Position numbers and translations under genes: made by a program. From Thermoplasmata archaeon (lineage in GTDB: Archaea; Thermoplasmatota; Thermoplasmata; Thermoplasmatales; GCA-001856825), in the NCBI GenBank assembly GCA_021797855.1, contig JAJZYX010000009.1:1-35824 (forward strand): a DNA stretch of 35,824 nt, given 5' to 3'. Positions within the stretch are counted from its first letter, which is position 1; every line of letters starts with the position of its first letter. This document shows, in pieces, positions 25,417 to 31,503 of this stretch. Under the pieces are notes generated by a model, which was not told the DNA's origin, did no database searches, and was given only the letters and a program-made list of their open reading frames with translations.

Positions 25417-26859
25417 ATGAGCGATAAAACTATCTCTGGCGAAGCTCAATCTGTCCAGACCCTGAGAAAGGATGCGGTGAAGTTCTGGGGACTCGTGTTT
25501 TATGCGGTTTCCATAATTTTCCCTGCTGGAGCATTCGCTGTTACTGGCGTAACCGCGATGGTCTTCGGTGGCGTTACCGCTCCACTCGCTTTCCTAATAG
25601 CTGGGGCAACCCTGTTTCTGGCCATAATTGCGGTCTATGTTTTCAGTGAGAAGGTCGCAAATGCAGGTGGATACTTCAAATTTGTAGAGGCAGCAACTCA
25701 GAATAAGTACATCTCTAAGAGTGTAGGTTTCTGGCATCTGTTCTGGGTTGTTGGTGACATAGTGGGTGCAAGTATCGTCGTAGGCTGGTTTGTATATGTT
25801 AGTCTTATAGCCCTCTTCAATTATACCCTTCCATTCTATGCCGTCGTGCTTCTGAGCCTCATAGTTCCGGTATTGTATCTTGTGATTGGCTACCTTGGGA
25901 TAAGAATCGCAACCAGGACTGCCCTCTTTATCGGCCTCATGCAGATTGTTTTCTTCGTCATTCTTGGAAGTGGGCTTCTCATTCTGAGCCACAACCATAG
26001 TCTCGCGGCGTTCAACATTGCCAACTCCACCAACGGACTGTACGGGTTCTTCCTGGCAATGGTTATAGGGGCGTTCTTGGCGTACGGAGGGTACGGGTCA
26101 GTTGTCTCCCTTGGGGAAGAGGCTCATCTCCCTAAGACTAGCCTAAAGAAGGCGATAGTTGCTGCGCTGCTGATAATGGTTGCTTTCGACACATTCGTCG
26201 TTTACTCCATAGTAGCCTCTTCAGGTGCGAATTTCAGTACAGTAGTGGGCTCATTCGCGCCTGGGATATATCTGGCACAACAGTATATGGGAATAGACGT
26301 AGCATTCCTTGCATTCCTGATAGTCATCTTCGCTCAGATATCCTCACCTGTGATTTTCGGTAATAGCGGGGCAAGAACCATTTTCGCATTGGCAAGGGAC
26401 GGCGTATTTCCGAAAAGCCTCGCAAAGGTGCACAGGAAGTATCAAAGTCCTCATATTGCAACCATATGGCTCTTCATAGTTCTTGTGGTGGGAATTCTAG
26501 CAACTCTGGCCGGATTCGTTAGTGCATTGGGGGTATCAAACGGATTGTTCTATGGATTCTCAGCCTGGTTCACCGCGATCACTGTTTTCACGCTGCTGTA
26601 CCACATCATAACGAACCAATCTCTTGCATTCTTCCTCAAAAGAATTAAAACGAAGATCAACGTACCTTTCCACATAATTGGGCCAGCGATAGCAAGCATC
26701 ATAATGGCTATAGCTATCTACTACTCTCTCGCAGGTCTTTCTGGGCCCCTTCTGGTAGCAGACTTCATGATCGTTGTCTGGATCGTGCTTGGCATAATAA
26801 TTATCTACGCAAGAAGGAACTATCTTAAAGTTGACACCGTGGAAGAATTGACGAAGTGA
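25417..26859 (+). CDS. APC-family amino acid permease
   Basis: A 480-residue integral membrane protein with about 12 helices. Features of the amino acid-polyamine-organocation family are the first helix VFYAVSIIFPAGAFAVTGV, the YVFSEKVANAGGYFKFVE segment after helix 2, and FLAYGGYGSVVSLGEEAHLPKT before the central loop. The helix-8/loop region carries GNSGARTIFALARDGVFPK. It imports amino acids. A strong ribosome-binding site, GAGGTGA, lies 7 bases before the ATG, with TATA-like CTTATAAT at 25376-25383. The class III aminotransferase follows 14 bases later, so uptake and deamination of the same amino acid are probably linked. The substrate is unknown. Confidence 0.9.
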   Translation: MSDKTISGEAQSVQTLRKDAVKFWGLVFYAVSIIFPAGAFAVTGVTAMVFGGVTAPLAFLIAGATLFLAIIAVYVFSEKVANAGGYFKFVEAATQNKYISKSVGFWHLFWVVGDIVGASIVVGWFVYVSLIALFNYTLPFYAVVLLSLIVPVLYLVIGYLGIRIATRTALFIGLMQIVFFVILGSGLLILSHNHSLAAFNIANSTNGLYGFFLAMVIGAFLAYGGYGSVVSLGEEAHLPKTSLKKAIVAALLIMVAFDTFVVYSIVASSGANFSTVVGSFAPGIYLAQQYMGIDVAFLAFLIVIFAQISSPVIFGNSGARTIFALARDGVFPKSLAKVHRKYQSPHIATIWLFIVLVVGILATLAGFVSALGVSNGLFYGFSAWFTAITVFTLLYHIITNQSLAFFLKRIKTKINVPFHIIGPAIASIIMAIAIYYSLAGLSGPLLVADFMIVVWIVLGIIIIYARRNYLKVDTVEELTK

Positions 26860-26873
26860 TAGAAGGTTAGAAA

Positions 26874-28043
26874 ATGGTAACTCCGGAATTCAAGCAGATC
26901 AGGGGTAGGATAAGGACCGTCGGAAAATACACCGTGGATATACGTAGAAAGGAATATTTGGATTTCTCCGGGGCCGCAATGGCCGTGGGTCATAATTTCG
27001 TAACCCCTTCTGATCTTACTTCTCCCGTGTCATTCCTTGTGTTCAGGAATTCCTACACGGAGCGATTGATGGGGAAGCTCAAGACCATGTCTGGATTCAG
27101 CAATGTTGCTTTCGCAACGTCTGGAACGGAGGCTTGTGACGCTGCCCTCCAAATGAATTATGGGAAAGCCTACATATCGTTCGAAGGTGCATACCACGGT
27201 CTTGACTACATCACTTATCTGGTCTCTAACGGAACAGGAATTGACAGGAAGAACGGCATAGTTCACCTTAAATTTCCAAACTCGGAGGTAAGTGAGGAAT
27301 ATGCAATTCAAGAGAACGAGAGAATTCTGAAAAAGGCTTCCAGGGTATTAGATACGGAAGGAGGTACAGTAATCACGGAATTAGTGCAATCTGACGGGGG
27401 AATCAACGTCATGGGAAAGCAGTTTGCCAGCTCGCTAAAAGAGATGGTCAGGGATTTTAATTTGAGACTGATCGTCGACGAAGTTTATACTGCCCTCGGT
27501 AGGTCAGGGGAAATGTTCCTTTACAAGAGCTATGGGTTGAGACCAAATTCTGTTTGCCTGGGAAAGGCCCTTGGAGCTGGGCTTCCACTAGGGGCAGTGT
27601 TGTACAACGGAGACTATCCTCTCTACAAGAATAATGTGGTAAGCATGCAGGCAGCCACCATGTTTACCGCAAGGGTAGCGCTGAAGGTTTTGAGTAGGAT
27701 CACGGAAGAGGAAGTGCGATATGTTCGCGAAATGGGGAAAGAAATTATTGAAAGGTTACAAGAAATCAGGAACGAAAGAATAAAGGAGGTCAGGGGAAGA
27801 GGATTCATGATAGGGGTGGAATTCGTTGATTCTAGAGGGAAACCTGATCCAGAATATTCACTGAAAATGAGAAATAGGATTGCAAAGAAGGGTGTGGTTT
27901 GTACCCTTGTCGGAGCAAAAAACAATGTTCTAAAGATAACTCCTCCGGTTACGATTCCTCGAAGAATGTTGGAAAGAGGAGTATCAATAATTGCAGATGA
28001 ACTTAAGGCCACGCAGGAGTTTAAAGGGAGAAGATTACATTGA
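26874..28043 (+). CDS. Class III PLP aminotransferase
   Basis: A 389-residue fold-type I aminotransferase of the ornithine/4-aminobutyrate/glutamate-semialdehyde group. Landmarks are ATSGTEACDAAL, the AYHG stretch, IVDEVYTALGRSG (Asp 202) and the PLP lysine in CLGKALGAGLPLG (Lys 231). The VRGRGFMIGVEF segment and the ITPPVTIP end are also typical. It is a little shorter than the usual 400-450. It shares a transcript with the APC permease upstream (14-base gap), which points to catabolism of an imported amino acid rather than biosynthesis. It could be a glutamate-semialdehyde-aminomutase-like mutase, but no tetrapyrrole gene is nearby. arg genes lie beyond the next, convergent gene. Confidence 0.85.
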   Translation: MVTPEFKQIRGRIRTVGKYTVDIRRKEYLDFSGAAMAVGHNFVTPSDLTSPVSFLVFRNSYTERLMGKLKTMSGFSNVAFATSGTEACDAALQMNYGKAYISFEGAYHGLDYITYLVSNGTGIDRKNGIVHLKFPNSEVSEEYAIQENERILKKASRVLDTEGGTVITELVQSDGGINVMGKQFASSLKEMVRDFNLRLIVDEVYTALGRSGEMFLYKSYGLRPNSVCLGKALGAGLPLGAVLYNGDYPLYKNNVVSMQAATMFTARVALKVLSRITEEEVRYVREMGKEIIERLQEIRNERIKEVRGRGFMIGVEFVDSRGKPDPEYSLKMRNRIAKKGVVCTLVGAKNNVLKITPPVTIPRRMLERGVSIIADELKATQEFKGRRLH

Positions 28044-28201: not shown

Positions 28202-28230
28202 GCTAGCTTGTCAAAACTTCGTAAGCTAGC
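28202..28230 (-). other. Hairpin spanning the stop codon of the ACT-domain gene
   Basis: GCTAGCTT and AAGCTAGC form a perfect 8-bp stem with a 13-base loop. The right arm of the mRNA hairpin contains the TAG stop, so the structure covers the last codons and the stop codon. It could protect the mRNA end or affect termination. Confidence 0.4.
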
Positions 28231-28796
28231 GTTGAATCTTTCTTGTTCAAAATGAGTATTGTTTCGTTGGAGCACGAAATAAGCTGAAGAATATTGATCC
28301 CCCTTGCAAAGAGTTTATGAGTTATTCTCATTACAAACCCAGGCGTTTTCTCTATTTCCTTTGAAGAGAAAATGTGTATCATGCTGACGTCTCTATCTAT
28401 CGCAATATTCGATGTGGCGGATGGAATTCTACTCTCGATTTCGTCTATGATGTACACAATACTATCATGAAGATGAGTTGCAGATATGTACTTCATAGCC
28501 AACGGAGTTTTGGAGGTAAGTACGCAGATCTTGTCTTGCAGAGAGATTTTGCTCTTCTTCAGAAGGTCGTCGGCCCTTGTTTTCCCTGGTTCTTCATCTA
28601 ACTTACTCTTTACCCTGTTCAATGCGGCCCTTACTGAAATTGGATTAAGACCTTTTTTTTCTTTCAAAACGAGGTCTGCTAATTTACTAATATTTACTAT
28701 TCCTGTTTTCAGGGAAAGCATATAATCTGGATTCTCAAGGAGGAATCTTACTACCCTGCTTTCAACAGTATCCTTCACTGTTTTCGAATTTCTCAT
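28203..28796 (-). CDS. ACT-domain protein with N-terminal helical (HTH-like) region, candidate regulator of argGH
   Basis: A 197-residue protein. Residues 1-75 are helical and resemble a winged-helix arrangement (VVRFLLENPDYMLSL, NISKLADLVLKEKKGLNP, ISVRAALNRVKSKL). Residues about 133-197 resemble a C-terminal ACT domain as in aspartokinases: VSMIHIFSS, TPGFVMRITHKLFARGIN, ILQLISCSNETILILN. ACT domains bind amino acids, so an amino-acid-responsive transcription regulator is the natural reading. The gene is divergent from argG-argH across a 114-base AT-rich region. A palindrome at 28802-28816 lies between its TATA-like sequence and its ATG, fitting autoregulation. The DNA-binding part is inferred, not a clear match. 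Confidence 0.65.
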   Translation of the reverse strand: MRNSKTVKDTVESRVVRFLLENPDYMLSLKTGIVNISKLADLVLKEKKGLNPISVRAALNRVKSKLDEEPGKTRADDLLKKSKISLQDKICVLTSKTPLAMKYISATHLHDSIVYIIDEIESRIPSATSNIAIDRDVSMIHIFSSKEIEKTPGFVMRITHKLFARGINILQLISCSNETILILNKKDSTLAYEVLTS

Positions 28797-28801
28797 GGAA
28801 T

Positions 28802-28816
28802 TACATGATTAATGTA
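28802..28816. promoter_or_regulatory. Candidate operator: palindrome at the start of the ACT-domain gene
   Basis: TACAT-GATTA-ATGTA is a perfect 5-bp dyad with a 5-base spacer, 6-20 bases upstream of the ATG at 28796. On the minus strand a TATA-like GTTAAAATATAC overlaps its outer edge. Binding here would block initiation of the ACT-domain gene. A weaker dyad, AATGA-N9-TCATT (28861-28879), lies directly before the argG TATA box. Confidence 0.45.
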
Positions 28817-28882
28817 TATTTTAACATTTGTATATAAGAAAAATTAAAATTCATATCTAAAATGATTATTTTGGTCATTATT

Positions 28883-28892
28883 CTAATATATT
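28883..28892 (+). promoter_or_regulatory. TATA box of argG
   Basis: CTAATATATT is centred about 24-26 bases before the ATG at 28911 and supports that ATG, not the in-frame TTG at 28905, as a leaderless start. Confidence 0.5.
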
Positions 28893-28910
28893 AATGGTAG
28901 ATCCTTGGTT

Positions 28911-30128
28911 ATGAAGGAAAGGGTACTCCTATTGTATTCTGGAGGTTTGGATACTTCCGTCATGATAAAATGGCTGCAGGAACAACAGAATCTTGACGTG
29001 TTGACTTTGACACTAGATGTAGGCCAGGAAAAGAATGACCTGGAAAGAATTGCTGAAAAGGCAAGGAAACTAGGTGCAGTGAAGACAATTACGGAGGATG
29101 TTAAGGATAAGTTCGCTAACGAGTTCGTTTCACAGGGAATAATGAATAACGGTCTCTATATGGATAAGTACCCTCTTTCCACGAGTCTAGCAAGACCTCT
29201 AATGGCTATGGAAGCTGTGAAGTTTGCAGAGCAGAATGATTGCGACATCATAGCCCATGGATCAACAGGGAAAGGGAACGACCAGGTAAGATTCGAAGTC
29301 TCTATAAGGGCGTTGAATGAAGACCTCACGGTCATCGCACCGGTAAGGGAAATGAACATGAACAGGGACGAGGAAATAGAGTATGCGAAAGTTAAGAACA
29401 TCGAAATACCCAACGGTGGAAAATACTCTGTGGATGAAAACTTATGGGGAAGGTCAGTTGAAGGATCGAACATTGAATCCATAGATGAAGGAATTCCGGA
29501 GGATGCTTATAAGTGGGTCCTGCCTGTTGAGAAGTCATTAGACATTCCGGTTGATATATTAATTACATACAGCGAGGGATTACCGGTTGAGCTGAACGGA
29601 AGAAAGATTCCGTTGAAGGATTTAATTGCGGAACTGAATTATATCGCAGGCCAAAGCGGTGTGGGAGCTATAGATATGATTGAGGACAGAGTTGTCGGAA
29701 TAAAGAGTCACGAATTCTATGAGTGTCCTGCTGCCGTCACAATTATAAATGGGCATAAATATCTAGAATCTCTAGTACTGACGAAGAGAGAAAACCAACT
29801 TAAGAAGTTGATGGACCAACAGTTTGCGGATATGGTTTACAGCGGTCTCTGGTTTGACCCTCTGATGGATCACATAAAGAAGTTCCAACAAAGTATTAAC
29901 GGCGCAGTAAATGGGAAGGTTAAACTGAAGTTATACAAAGGGAATATAATCCCATTAGGTGCTGAAAGCGCGAATTCCCTTTATGACTTTTCCAAGTCGA
30001 CATATGGAAAGAACCAGACATTTGATCAGAGCAAGGCTCCAGGTTTCATATACATATTCGGAAGTCAAACAATTGCAGCCAAAAAGGCAAGGAAGAGACA
30101 TTTGGAAGAGATGGTAATGAAAGAGTGA
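28911..30128 (+). CDS. argG: Argininosuccinate synthase
   Basis: Condenses citrulline and aspartate with ATP to argininosuccinate. The 405-residue protein starts ERVLLLYSGGLDTSVMIKWL, with the ATP-binding SGGLDTS motif at 10-16. It continues with the family segments AHGSTGKGNDQVRFE, KYSVDENLWGRSVEGSNIE and GVGAIDMIEDRVVGIKSHE. Length is normal. The TATA box at 28883-28892 places translation start at ATG 28911. argH begins 4 bases after its stop, forming an argG-argH operon, and a divergent ACT-domain gene with candidate operators shares the upstream region. Carbamoyl-transferase and early arginine genes are not in the window. Confidence 0.96.
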   Translation: MKERVLLLYSGGLDTSVMIKWLQEQQNLDVLTLTLDVGQEKNDLERIAEKARKLGAVKTITEDVKDKFANEFVSQGIMNNGLYMDKYPLSTSLARPLMAMEAVKFAEQNDCDIIAHGSTGKGNDQVRFEVSIRALNEDLTVIAPVREMNMNRDEEIEYAKVKNIEIPNGGKYSVDENLWGRSVEGSNIESIDEGIPEDAYKWVLPVEKSLDIPVDILITYSEGLPVELNGRKIPLKDLIAELNYIAGQSGVGAIDMIEDRVVGIKSHEFYECPAAVTIINGHKYLESLVLTKRENQLKKLMDQQFADMVYSGLWFDPLMDHIKKFQQSINGAVNGKVKLKLYKGNIIPLGAESANSLYDFSKSTYGKNQTFDQSKAPGFIYIFGSQTIAAKKARKRHLEEMVMKE

Positions 30129-30132
30129 CCTC

Positions 30133-31503
30133 ATGGTGAAAATATGGAGCGGCGGAGCATCTAAGGAGGGGGGTATAGACCTCTCCGACGTAATGACCAG
30201 TGAGGACGCGAAGATAGATTCCATCCTTCTCGACTATGAATTAACCTCTCTCATCGCTTATCATTTGCAACTCAGAAATGAATCTATAATCCCTTTGAAG
30301 GATAGTGACTCTATACTAGCTGGATTGGTTTCTATGCTTGGAAAGAAGACCAAACTGGATCCAGCTCTTGAAGACGTGCATGGATTTGTAGAGAATTACC
30401 TCAAGAAGAAGGGTGGGAACGCATACAAGAATCTCCGAGTTTTCCTTTCAAGGAACGAGCAGAGTCATACAAACATAAGGTCTTTCTACATTGATCATCT
30501 CCTGAGGGTCTCTAAAAATCTCATCTCCATTTCGGAGTTAATGCATGTTCGCAAGGGAAAATCCAAGGGAGAGATGCCGGGTTATACACACAACCAACAG
30601 GCAATGCCAGTAACAGTTTCAAGTTATTTTGACTACTTATCAAGGACATTCTTGGATGTGTCACTCGAAGCCATTAAGCAATGTGATGAACTTATGGAAA
30701 CGTCACCATTAGGCTACGGATCGGGTTTCGGCTCACTTTCACCAGTAGATTTTAATGCCATTGCAAAGAATCTAGGGTTCAAATCAAAAACAAGAAATCC
30801 TATGGCTGGGGCCTTTCACCGGGGATTTGACGATCTTAATGTTTCGGTCTTTTTGCTGAAAGTAATGGTCCTTCTCTCCAGAATATCTCAGGATTTCATA
30901 ATCTTTAGTAGTGGGAAATCACCATTCGCAACACTGCCTTCAGGATTTACTACTGGGAGCTCGCTTATGCCGAACAAGAAGAATCCAGACTTCCTAGAAA
31001 TGGTTCAGGGGTATGCATCGGAGGCAGTTGGTCGTTTAGTCTCAACTTCTGGGATTCTATTGAACAAACATTCCGGGTACCACAGGGAATTCCAGATATC
31101 AAAGGATGGAACTATTGAATATATGATCCTGGCAGAGAAGCTTCTAGATCACTTTCGCGCTTTCCTGCTCAAAGTTGGGCTTGATGAAGAGAAGGCCAGG
31201 GAATCAATGGAAAATTCCGTAAACGCCACCGCGGAGGCATATTCAATCTTCAAATCAGGAAAATCGTGGAAAGACTCATACGCACTCGCCGGGGAGAAAG
31301 TAAGAAGAGGCATTCCTCTTGATTATCATAGACCTCAGGAGTACGACTCCGTAAGCAATACAGACATCTTATTGGCAAAAAGTGAGAGGGGAAAAATACT
31401 TCGTTCTTGGAGTAAACCAAGGAAGGAAACGATAAACAAAGCTAAGCTCATAATATCAGGAAGTAGAGCCGGAGGGAGACAATCGAAAGGGAGGTACGCT
31501 TAA
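30133..31503 (+). CDS. argH: Argininosuccinate lyase
   Basis: Splits argininosuccinate into arginine and fumarate, the last step of arginine synthesis. In the 456-residue protein the fumarase/aspartase-superfamily signature GSSLMPNKKNPD is at 275-286, with the flexible catalytic loop Ser. The catalytic His region is MPGYTHNQQAMPV (His 153), and the start MVKIWSGG is typical. Some usual sequences are altered: LSRNEQSHT replaces the common SRNDQVATD, so the enzyme is divergent although the Asn is retained. It is separated from argG by 4 bases and surely co-transcribed. The C-terminus ends in a basic, Gly/Arg/Ser-rich tail. Confidence 0.94.
   Translation: MVKIWSGGASKEGGIDLSDVMTSEDAKIDSILLDYELTSLIAYHLQLRNESIIPLKDSDSILAGLVSMLGKKTKLDPALEDVHGFVENYLKKKGGNAYKNLRVFLSRNEQSHTNIRSFYIDHLLRVSKNLISISELMHVRKGKSKGEMPGYTHNQQAMPVTVSSYFDYLSRTFLDVSLEAIKQCDELMETSPLGYGSGFGSLSPVDFNAIAKNLGFKSKTRNPMAGAFHRGFDDLNVSVFLLKVMVLLSRISQDFIIFSSGKSPFATLPSGFTTGSSLMPNKKNPDFLEMVQGYASEAVGRLVSTSGILLNKHSGYHREFQISKDGTIEYMILAEKLLDHFRAFLLKVGLDEEKARESMENSVNATAEAYSIFKSGKSWKDSYALAGEKVRRGIPLDYHRPQEYDSVSNTDILLAKSERGKILRSWSKPRKETINKAKLIISGSRAGGRQSKGRYA

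Follow-up and report, generated by a model that had tools for sequence, protein, structure and literature searches.

Few archaeal regulators of amino acid synthesis have been characterized, and a literature search found none for arginine in Thermoplasmatota. In a Thermoplasmata archaeon, a gene coding for a small ACT-domain protein lies divergently to argG and argH on the 35,824 nucleotides analyzed here (contig JAJZYX010000009.1, positions 1 to 35,824; “the window”), which raises the question of whether this protein controls the two arginine genes, and from which site. A first-pass annotation, made from the nucleotide sequence, had described a protein with a helical N-terminus and an ACT domain, and this description agrees with ORF analysis, profile searches, Foldseek and AlphaFold2: the ORF was confirmed, and its product comprises 197 amino acids. 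The features of the locus are compiled in Table 1.

Table 1. Positions of genes, protein domains and regulatory elements in the window
Feature	Position	Strand	Evidence
Candidate regulator gene, ACT-domain, 197 aa	28203..28796	-	ORF; ~38 orthologs at 40-80% identity; alignments
Second ACT domain, residues 137-196, with conserved TPGF...GINI segment	28209..28388	-	Pfam ACT_7, aspartate kinase models, Foldseek
First, reduced ACT-like unit, residues 83-134, modelled as strands only	28395..28550	-	AlphaFold2, alignment
N-terminal domain, basic and helical, residues 11-81, presumed to bind DNA	28554..28766	-	AlphaFold2; net charge +7
Helices 36-46 and 52-67, helix-turn-helix-like spacing	28596-28691	-	AlphaFold2
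Candidate operator TACAT-GATTA-ATGTA; core ACAT-N5-ATGT at 28803-28815	28802..28816		Top palindrome over 26 orthologous gaps
Weaker overlapping dyad AATGT-N8-ACATT, straddling the ACT promoter block	28811..28828		Unbiased scan
TATA/BRE-like promoter block of the ACT gene, AATGTTAAAATATA (minus strand)	28815..28828	-	Most conserved non-coding block, near relatives
Degenerate copy ATAT-CTAAA-ATGA, 6/8, 55 bp before the argG ATG	28853..28865		Upstream of argG box
TATA-like conserved block of the argG promoter, TCTAATATATTAATG	28882..28896	+	Near-relative alignment
argG, argininosuccinate synthase	28914..30128	+	TIGR00032, 443.8 bits, above cut-off; start codon ATG
argH, argininosuccinate lyase	30133..31503	+	PRK06389.1 (NCBIfam), E 2e-110, just under cut-off; TIGR00838, E 3e-54

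Among 101 related genomes, close orthologs of the ACT gene occur in 38 of the 43 genomes that possess argG, as compared to none of the 58 genomes without argG (Fisher p ~1e-22, a figure which ignores the relatedness of the genomes). Genome G011, in which argG is represented by a fragment at the end of a contig, was counted as an argG genome, and G068 has a 24-residue piece at a contig end. The ACT gene is oriented head-to-head with argG in 29 of the 38 ortholog genomes, separated by some 115-155 bp; in eight others it is located next to argH or close to the arginine operon, and in one the contig breaks. Five argG genomes have no close ortholog. In four of them a diverged homolog is adjacent to argG, transcribed divergently in G012 and G014 and co-directionally in G024 and G036; in G038 the diverged homolog and argG are on separate contigs. 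At the level of the phylum Thermoplasmatota, 16 of 23 loci adjoin genes that match argG, argC, argD or carA in tblastn. Six neighboring aminotransferases were scanned; four scored above the argD cut-off, the fifth is truncated and matches argD best, and the sixth belongs to another class-III family and lies beside an argD. In a phylogenetic tree, the window protein falls inside a well-supported argG-linked clade, and arginine gene contexts are scattered over the tree rather than limited to one clade.

A second ACT paralog, which shares about 17-22% identity with the window protein, was found at L040:1876-2556, L053:6602-7273, L054:7109-7840 and L052:10561-11232. It is divergent from a LysW-type argC-argB-argD-lysX-argE operon in genomes G047 and G085, and likewise in G073, where one operon member was not called; in G072 (L052) it faces a lysX homolog. 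In L040 and L053-L054, this paralog and the argG-type ACT gene are arranged tail-to-tail. Other ACT paralogs are divergent from genes of APC amino acid permeases (L041:2570-3259, L052:4035-4673, L060:6519-7199, L061:6831-7487, L062:6599-7240 and L063:6705-7328), suggesting that the family controls uptake as well as synthesis. In L064-L066, L068, L070 and L072, a further paralog has as its neighbor a tRNA thiolation gene of the PP-loop (TtuA-like) type; gene order is conserved in this neighborhood, which has no evident link to arginine. In the window itself, genes for an APC permease and for an aminotransferase of class III lie just past the ACT gene (25417-26859 and 26874-28043). The best profiles for the aminotransferase, of acetylornithine type, score far under their cut-offs, and it may be a diverged enzyme with an unknown substrate.

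The C-terminal part of the window protein matches the ACT end of an aspartate kinase model (E 9e-9), and residues 134-196 match Pfam ACT_7 with an E value of 8e-5, slightly under the Pfam cut-off. ACT_7 matches all 36 family members examined, and aspartate kinase ACT profiles also match members. The best 50 Foldseek matches of the ACT part were all aspartokinases or their regulatory domains. The AlphaFold2 model, computed from a shallow alignment of seven sequences (mean pLDDT 82, pTM 0.59), contains N-terminal helices at residues 11-21, 23-31, 36-46, 52-67 and 70-81, followed by a strands-only ACT-like unit and a complete second ACT domain. About 16 alignment columns that are present in the paralogs are absent from the first ACT unit of the argG-linked subfamily. 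The conserved TPGF...GINI segment of the second ACT domain is typical of ACT ligand sites. Taking a beta-alpha-beta-beta-alpha-beta fold and a conserved PG...G.NI segment as the mark of the ACT domain superfamily, profiles and fold identify the protein as a member.

Tandem ACT units and the best fold match to regulatory domains liken the protein to aspartate kinases; however, it has no kinase domain, and a helical N-terminal domain takes its place. The net charge of this domain is +7, and 35 of 36 members have Arg or Lys at position 61, which falls within the fourth helix. When modelled alone, it formed five helices without wing strands (pLDDT 74). A search of PDB folds with this model gave no match at E <= 0.001, a profile search of the PDB with the N-terminal domain found nothing, the single window-protein sequence retrieved only noise from the PDB, and profile searches of the family with helix-turn-helix families gave nothing above noise. 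The winged helix for which structure prediction had been proposed was not predicted from this shallow alignment and, since the five-helix N-terminus matches no solved structure, we infer rather than recognize DNA binding. The same data leave some room for a stand-alone allosteric subunit without DNA binding, which would sense an amino acid and control ArgG or another arginine enzyme by contact: the closest structure and sequence matches are the allosteric ACT units of aspartokinases, and no DNA-binding fold was recognized. We nevertheless regard such a subunit as unlikely, in view of the operator-like dyad that recurs in the shared gap (see below), the conserved divergent arrangement, the basic N-terminus and the paralogs beside permease genes, for which an enzyme subunit would not account.

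The gap between the ACT gene and argG spans 117 bp in the window and is 80% A+T. It contains seven perfect dyads with halves of at least 5 bp, as compared to 8.1 expected from dinucleotide shuffles, so that neither dyad of the first-pass annotation stands out in this sequence, and a dyad picked out by inspection carries no weight on its own. We rely on an unbiased scan of all 256 4-bp half-sites with 15 spacers over 26 ACT-argG gaps. ACAT-N5-ATGT ranked first, occurring in eight regions versus 0.2 expected; its nominal p value of 5e-11, which is inflated because the 26 gaps are related sequences, compares with a best value of 1.4e-4 among 100 shuffled sets. The perfect dyad TACAT-N5-ATGTA of the first-pass annotation, which contains this core, is thereby borne out as the top palindrome and as conserved across relatives. 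The distance between the motif and the argG start differs among clades, amounting to 105 bp in the near clade, to 66 bp in L017 and L018, and to 77 bp in L027, L030-L032 and L034. Among seven near relatives, pairwise identity amounts to 0.87 in the half-sites and 0.38 in the spacer. The 886 kb examined of the window's genome (G000) contain 12 copies, of which 11 are inside ORFs, the window copy being the sole intergenic one; over the tabulated loci, four exact intergenic copies were found in 64.5 kb, every one of them in an ACT-argG gap. An operator-like dyad close to the promoters of both the gene itself and its presumed target is conserved, though absent in some clades: no site of at least 7/8 was found in the gene-pair clades L014, L016, L024-L026, L033, L036 and L047.

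A wider regulon was found neither in G000 nor elsewhere in the material searched. In the complete genomes G031 and G022, for each of which only 15 motif sites were placed against genes, ACAT-N5-ATGT is no commoner than its reversed control, and the proposed search before other arg genes yielded no copy upstream of argC operons.

The start codon of the ACT gene is preceded, at a distance of about 25 bp, by a conserved TATA/BRE-like block, and this short distance suggests that the ACT transcript is probably leaderless. The dyad is located between this box and the start codon, and its proposed overlap with the ACT start region stands, as judged from the alignment. The second dyad named in the first-pass annotation, AATGA-N9-TCATT before the argG TATA box, is present as written at 28861-28879. 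It was rejected as an operator, being private to the window genome, missing in its near relatives, most of which carry TTTAACTAAT in its place, and unremarkable against chance; conservation among relatives with the same gene pair thus holds for the first dyad but not for the second. On the argG side, L003 and L011 have 7/8 copies of ACAT-N5-ATGT at the position equivalent to the degenerate copy of the window. ATGT-N8-ACAT, the core of the weaker dyad which straddles the ACT promoter block, ranked third in the scan (five regions versus 0.2 expected) and may be an extra half-site or a part of the promoter.

A rival reading is that the protein is an amino-acid-responsive regulator with its true site in another element, for instance the block at 28811-28828, ACAT-N5-ATGT being a by-product of shared promoter sequence. 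One dyad half does touch the promoter block, several clades are without sites, and the overlapping AATGT-N8-ACATT is also high-ranking. Descent of one promoter, however, does not explain the occurrence of the motif in three clades at three distances from argG, nor does it explain why the halves are kept while the spacer varies. We consider this reading improbable, slightly more so than the allosteric subunit, and regard ACAT-N5-ATGT as probably the binding site of the ACT protein, as predicted from the comparative data.

The locus is best explained, and in our judgment more probably than not, by a small one-component regulator of arginine synthesis which is autoregulated, responds to an amino acid and uses ACAT-N5-ATGT. 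The basic helical N-terminal domain would bind this site as a dimer, and an effector from the arginine pathway, most likely arginine, would bind to the ACT domains. Protein bound at the dyad would lie across the region where transcription of its own gene starts and, being located between box and ATG, would hinder initiation, resulting in self-repression. Expression of argG-argH would be tuned to amino acid supply from the same site and from the weaker copies nearer argG. The first-pass annotation had left the choice between an arginine and an aspartate sensor; since homologs are linked to argC, argD, lysX and carA, a signal from the arginine pathway is favored, and arginine appears more likely than aspartate as effector. 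Overall, the first-pass observations are partly confirmed, and the interpretation as an arginine-linked ACT regulator is partly supported. Its core, an ACT regulator tied to arginine synthesis and having an autoregulatory dyad, gained strong comparative support from co-occurrence with and divergence from argG, from the arginine genes that adjoin family members and from the top rank of the first dyad in the scan; the winged helix and the argG-side dyad found no support.

Among known systems, the regulator would work like TrpY or Lrp, although by the tests made it is a member of neither family, nor of ArgR. TrpY, the tryptophan regulator of Methanothermobacter, is divergent from the operon it controls, has its sites in the shared gap, represses its own gene and is amino acid responsive (PMC6737238). 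The window protein resembles it in its helical N-terminus, its ACT-like C-terminus and its position divergent from a biosynthetic operon, but lacks a significant sequence match beyond 38 ACT columns. That it should be a TrpY-family member with its target switched to arginine genes is very improbable, for although TrpY shares the divergent, autoregulated arrangement and three of 36 family members give weak TrpY_fam matches (best E 0.004), the window protein gives none, profile comparison yielded 29% probability over those ACT columns only, and the same genome encodes a separate protein far closer to TrpY_fam (G000:C19:44950-45426, E 4e-46, under the curated cut-off). Membership in TrpY (NF053754) was rejected for want of a model match above cut-off, which leaves only the analogy.

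FL11, an archaeal Lrp/AsnC protein, binds arginine and lysine and responds to arginine (PMC2995911). Like such proteins, the window protein would be a one-component regulator of an archaeon in which an alpha-beta domain binds the amino acid; no AsnC-type helix-turn-helix or RAM/AsnC profile of Pfam or NCBIfam matched the window protein at E <= 1. With bacterial ArgR it shares only the presumed role in the regulation of arginine synthesis, but it has ACT domains instead and another dyad, and no ArgR profile of Pfam or NCBIfam matched at E <= 1, in line with the earlier view that it is unlike ArgR.

DUF7523 (PF24367), which also occurs in Haloferax volcanii, covers the N-terminal helices in all 23 phylum-level members (best E 1e-10); several homologs pass its gathering score, while the window protein itself has no match. 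Presumably the window protein belongs to COG2150, a group of ACT-domain proteins of similar size and architecture which are predicted to regulate amino acid metabolism. One listing (PMC1852104) gives COG2150 as specific to almost all Euryarchaeota. For COG2150, for DUF7523 and for archaeal ACT regulators, literature searches turned up nothing on function.

In a single compact locus, the gene, a 13-bp predicted operator core and the target are found together, making it, on comparative grounds, a promising case of a regulator that responds to arginine, belongs to an archaeal ACT family on which little work exists and has one supported candidate operator, and a directly testable candidate for an archaeal arginine-gene switch. 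More tentatively, the arginine-pathway regulator of Thermoplasmatota may be a widespread, uncharacterized archaeal ACT family which has a DNA-binding domain unlike any solved structure, employs separate paralogs for argG, the argC-lysX operon and amino acid uptake, and takes the role that ArgR has in bacteria. The phylum-wide linkage to arginine genes would also provide a conserved, uncharacterized (DUF7523-like) protein with a function.
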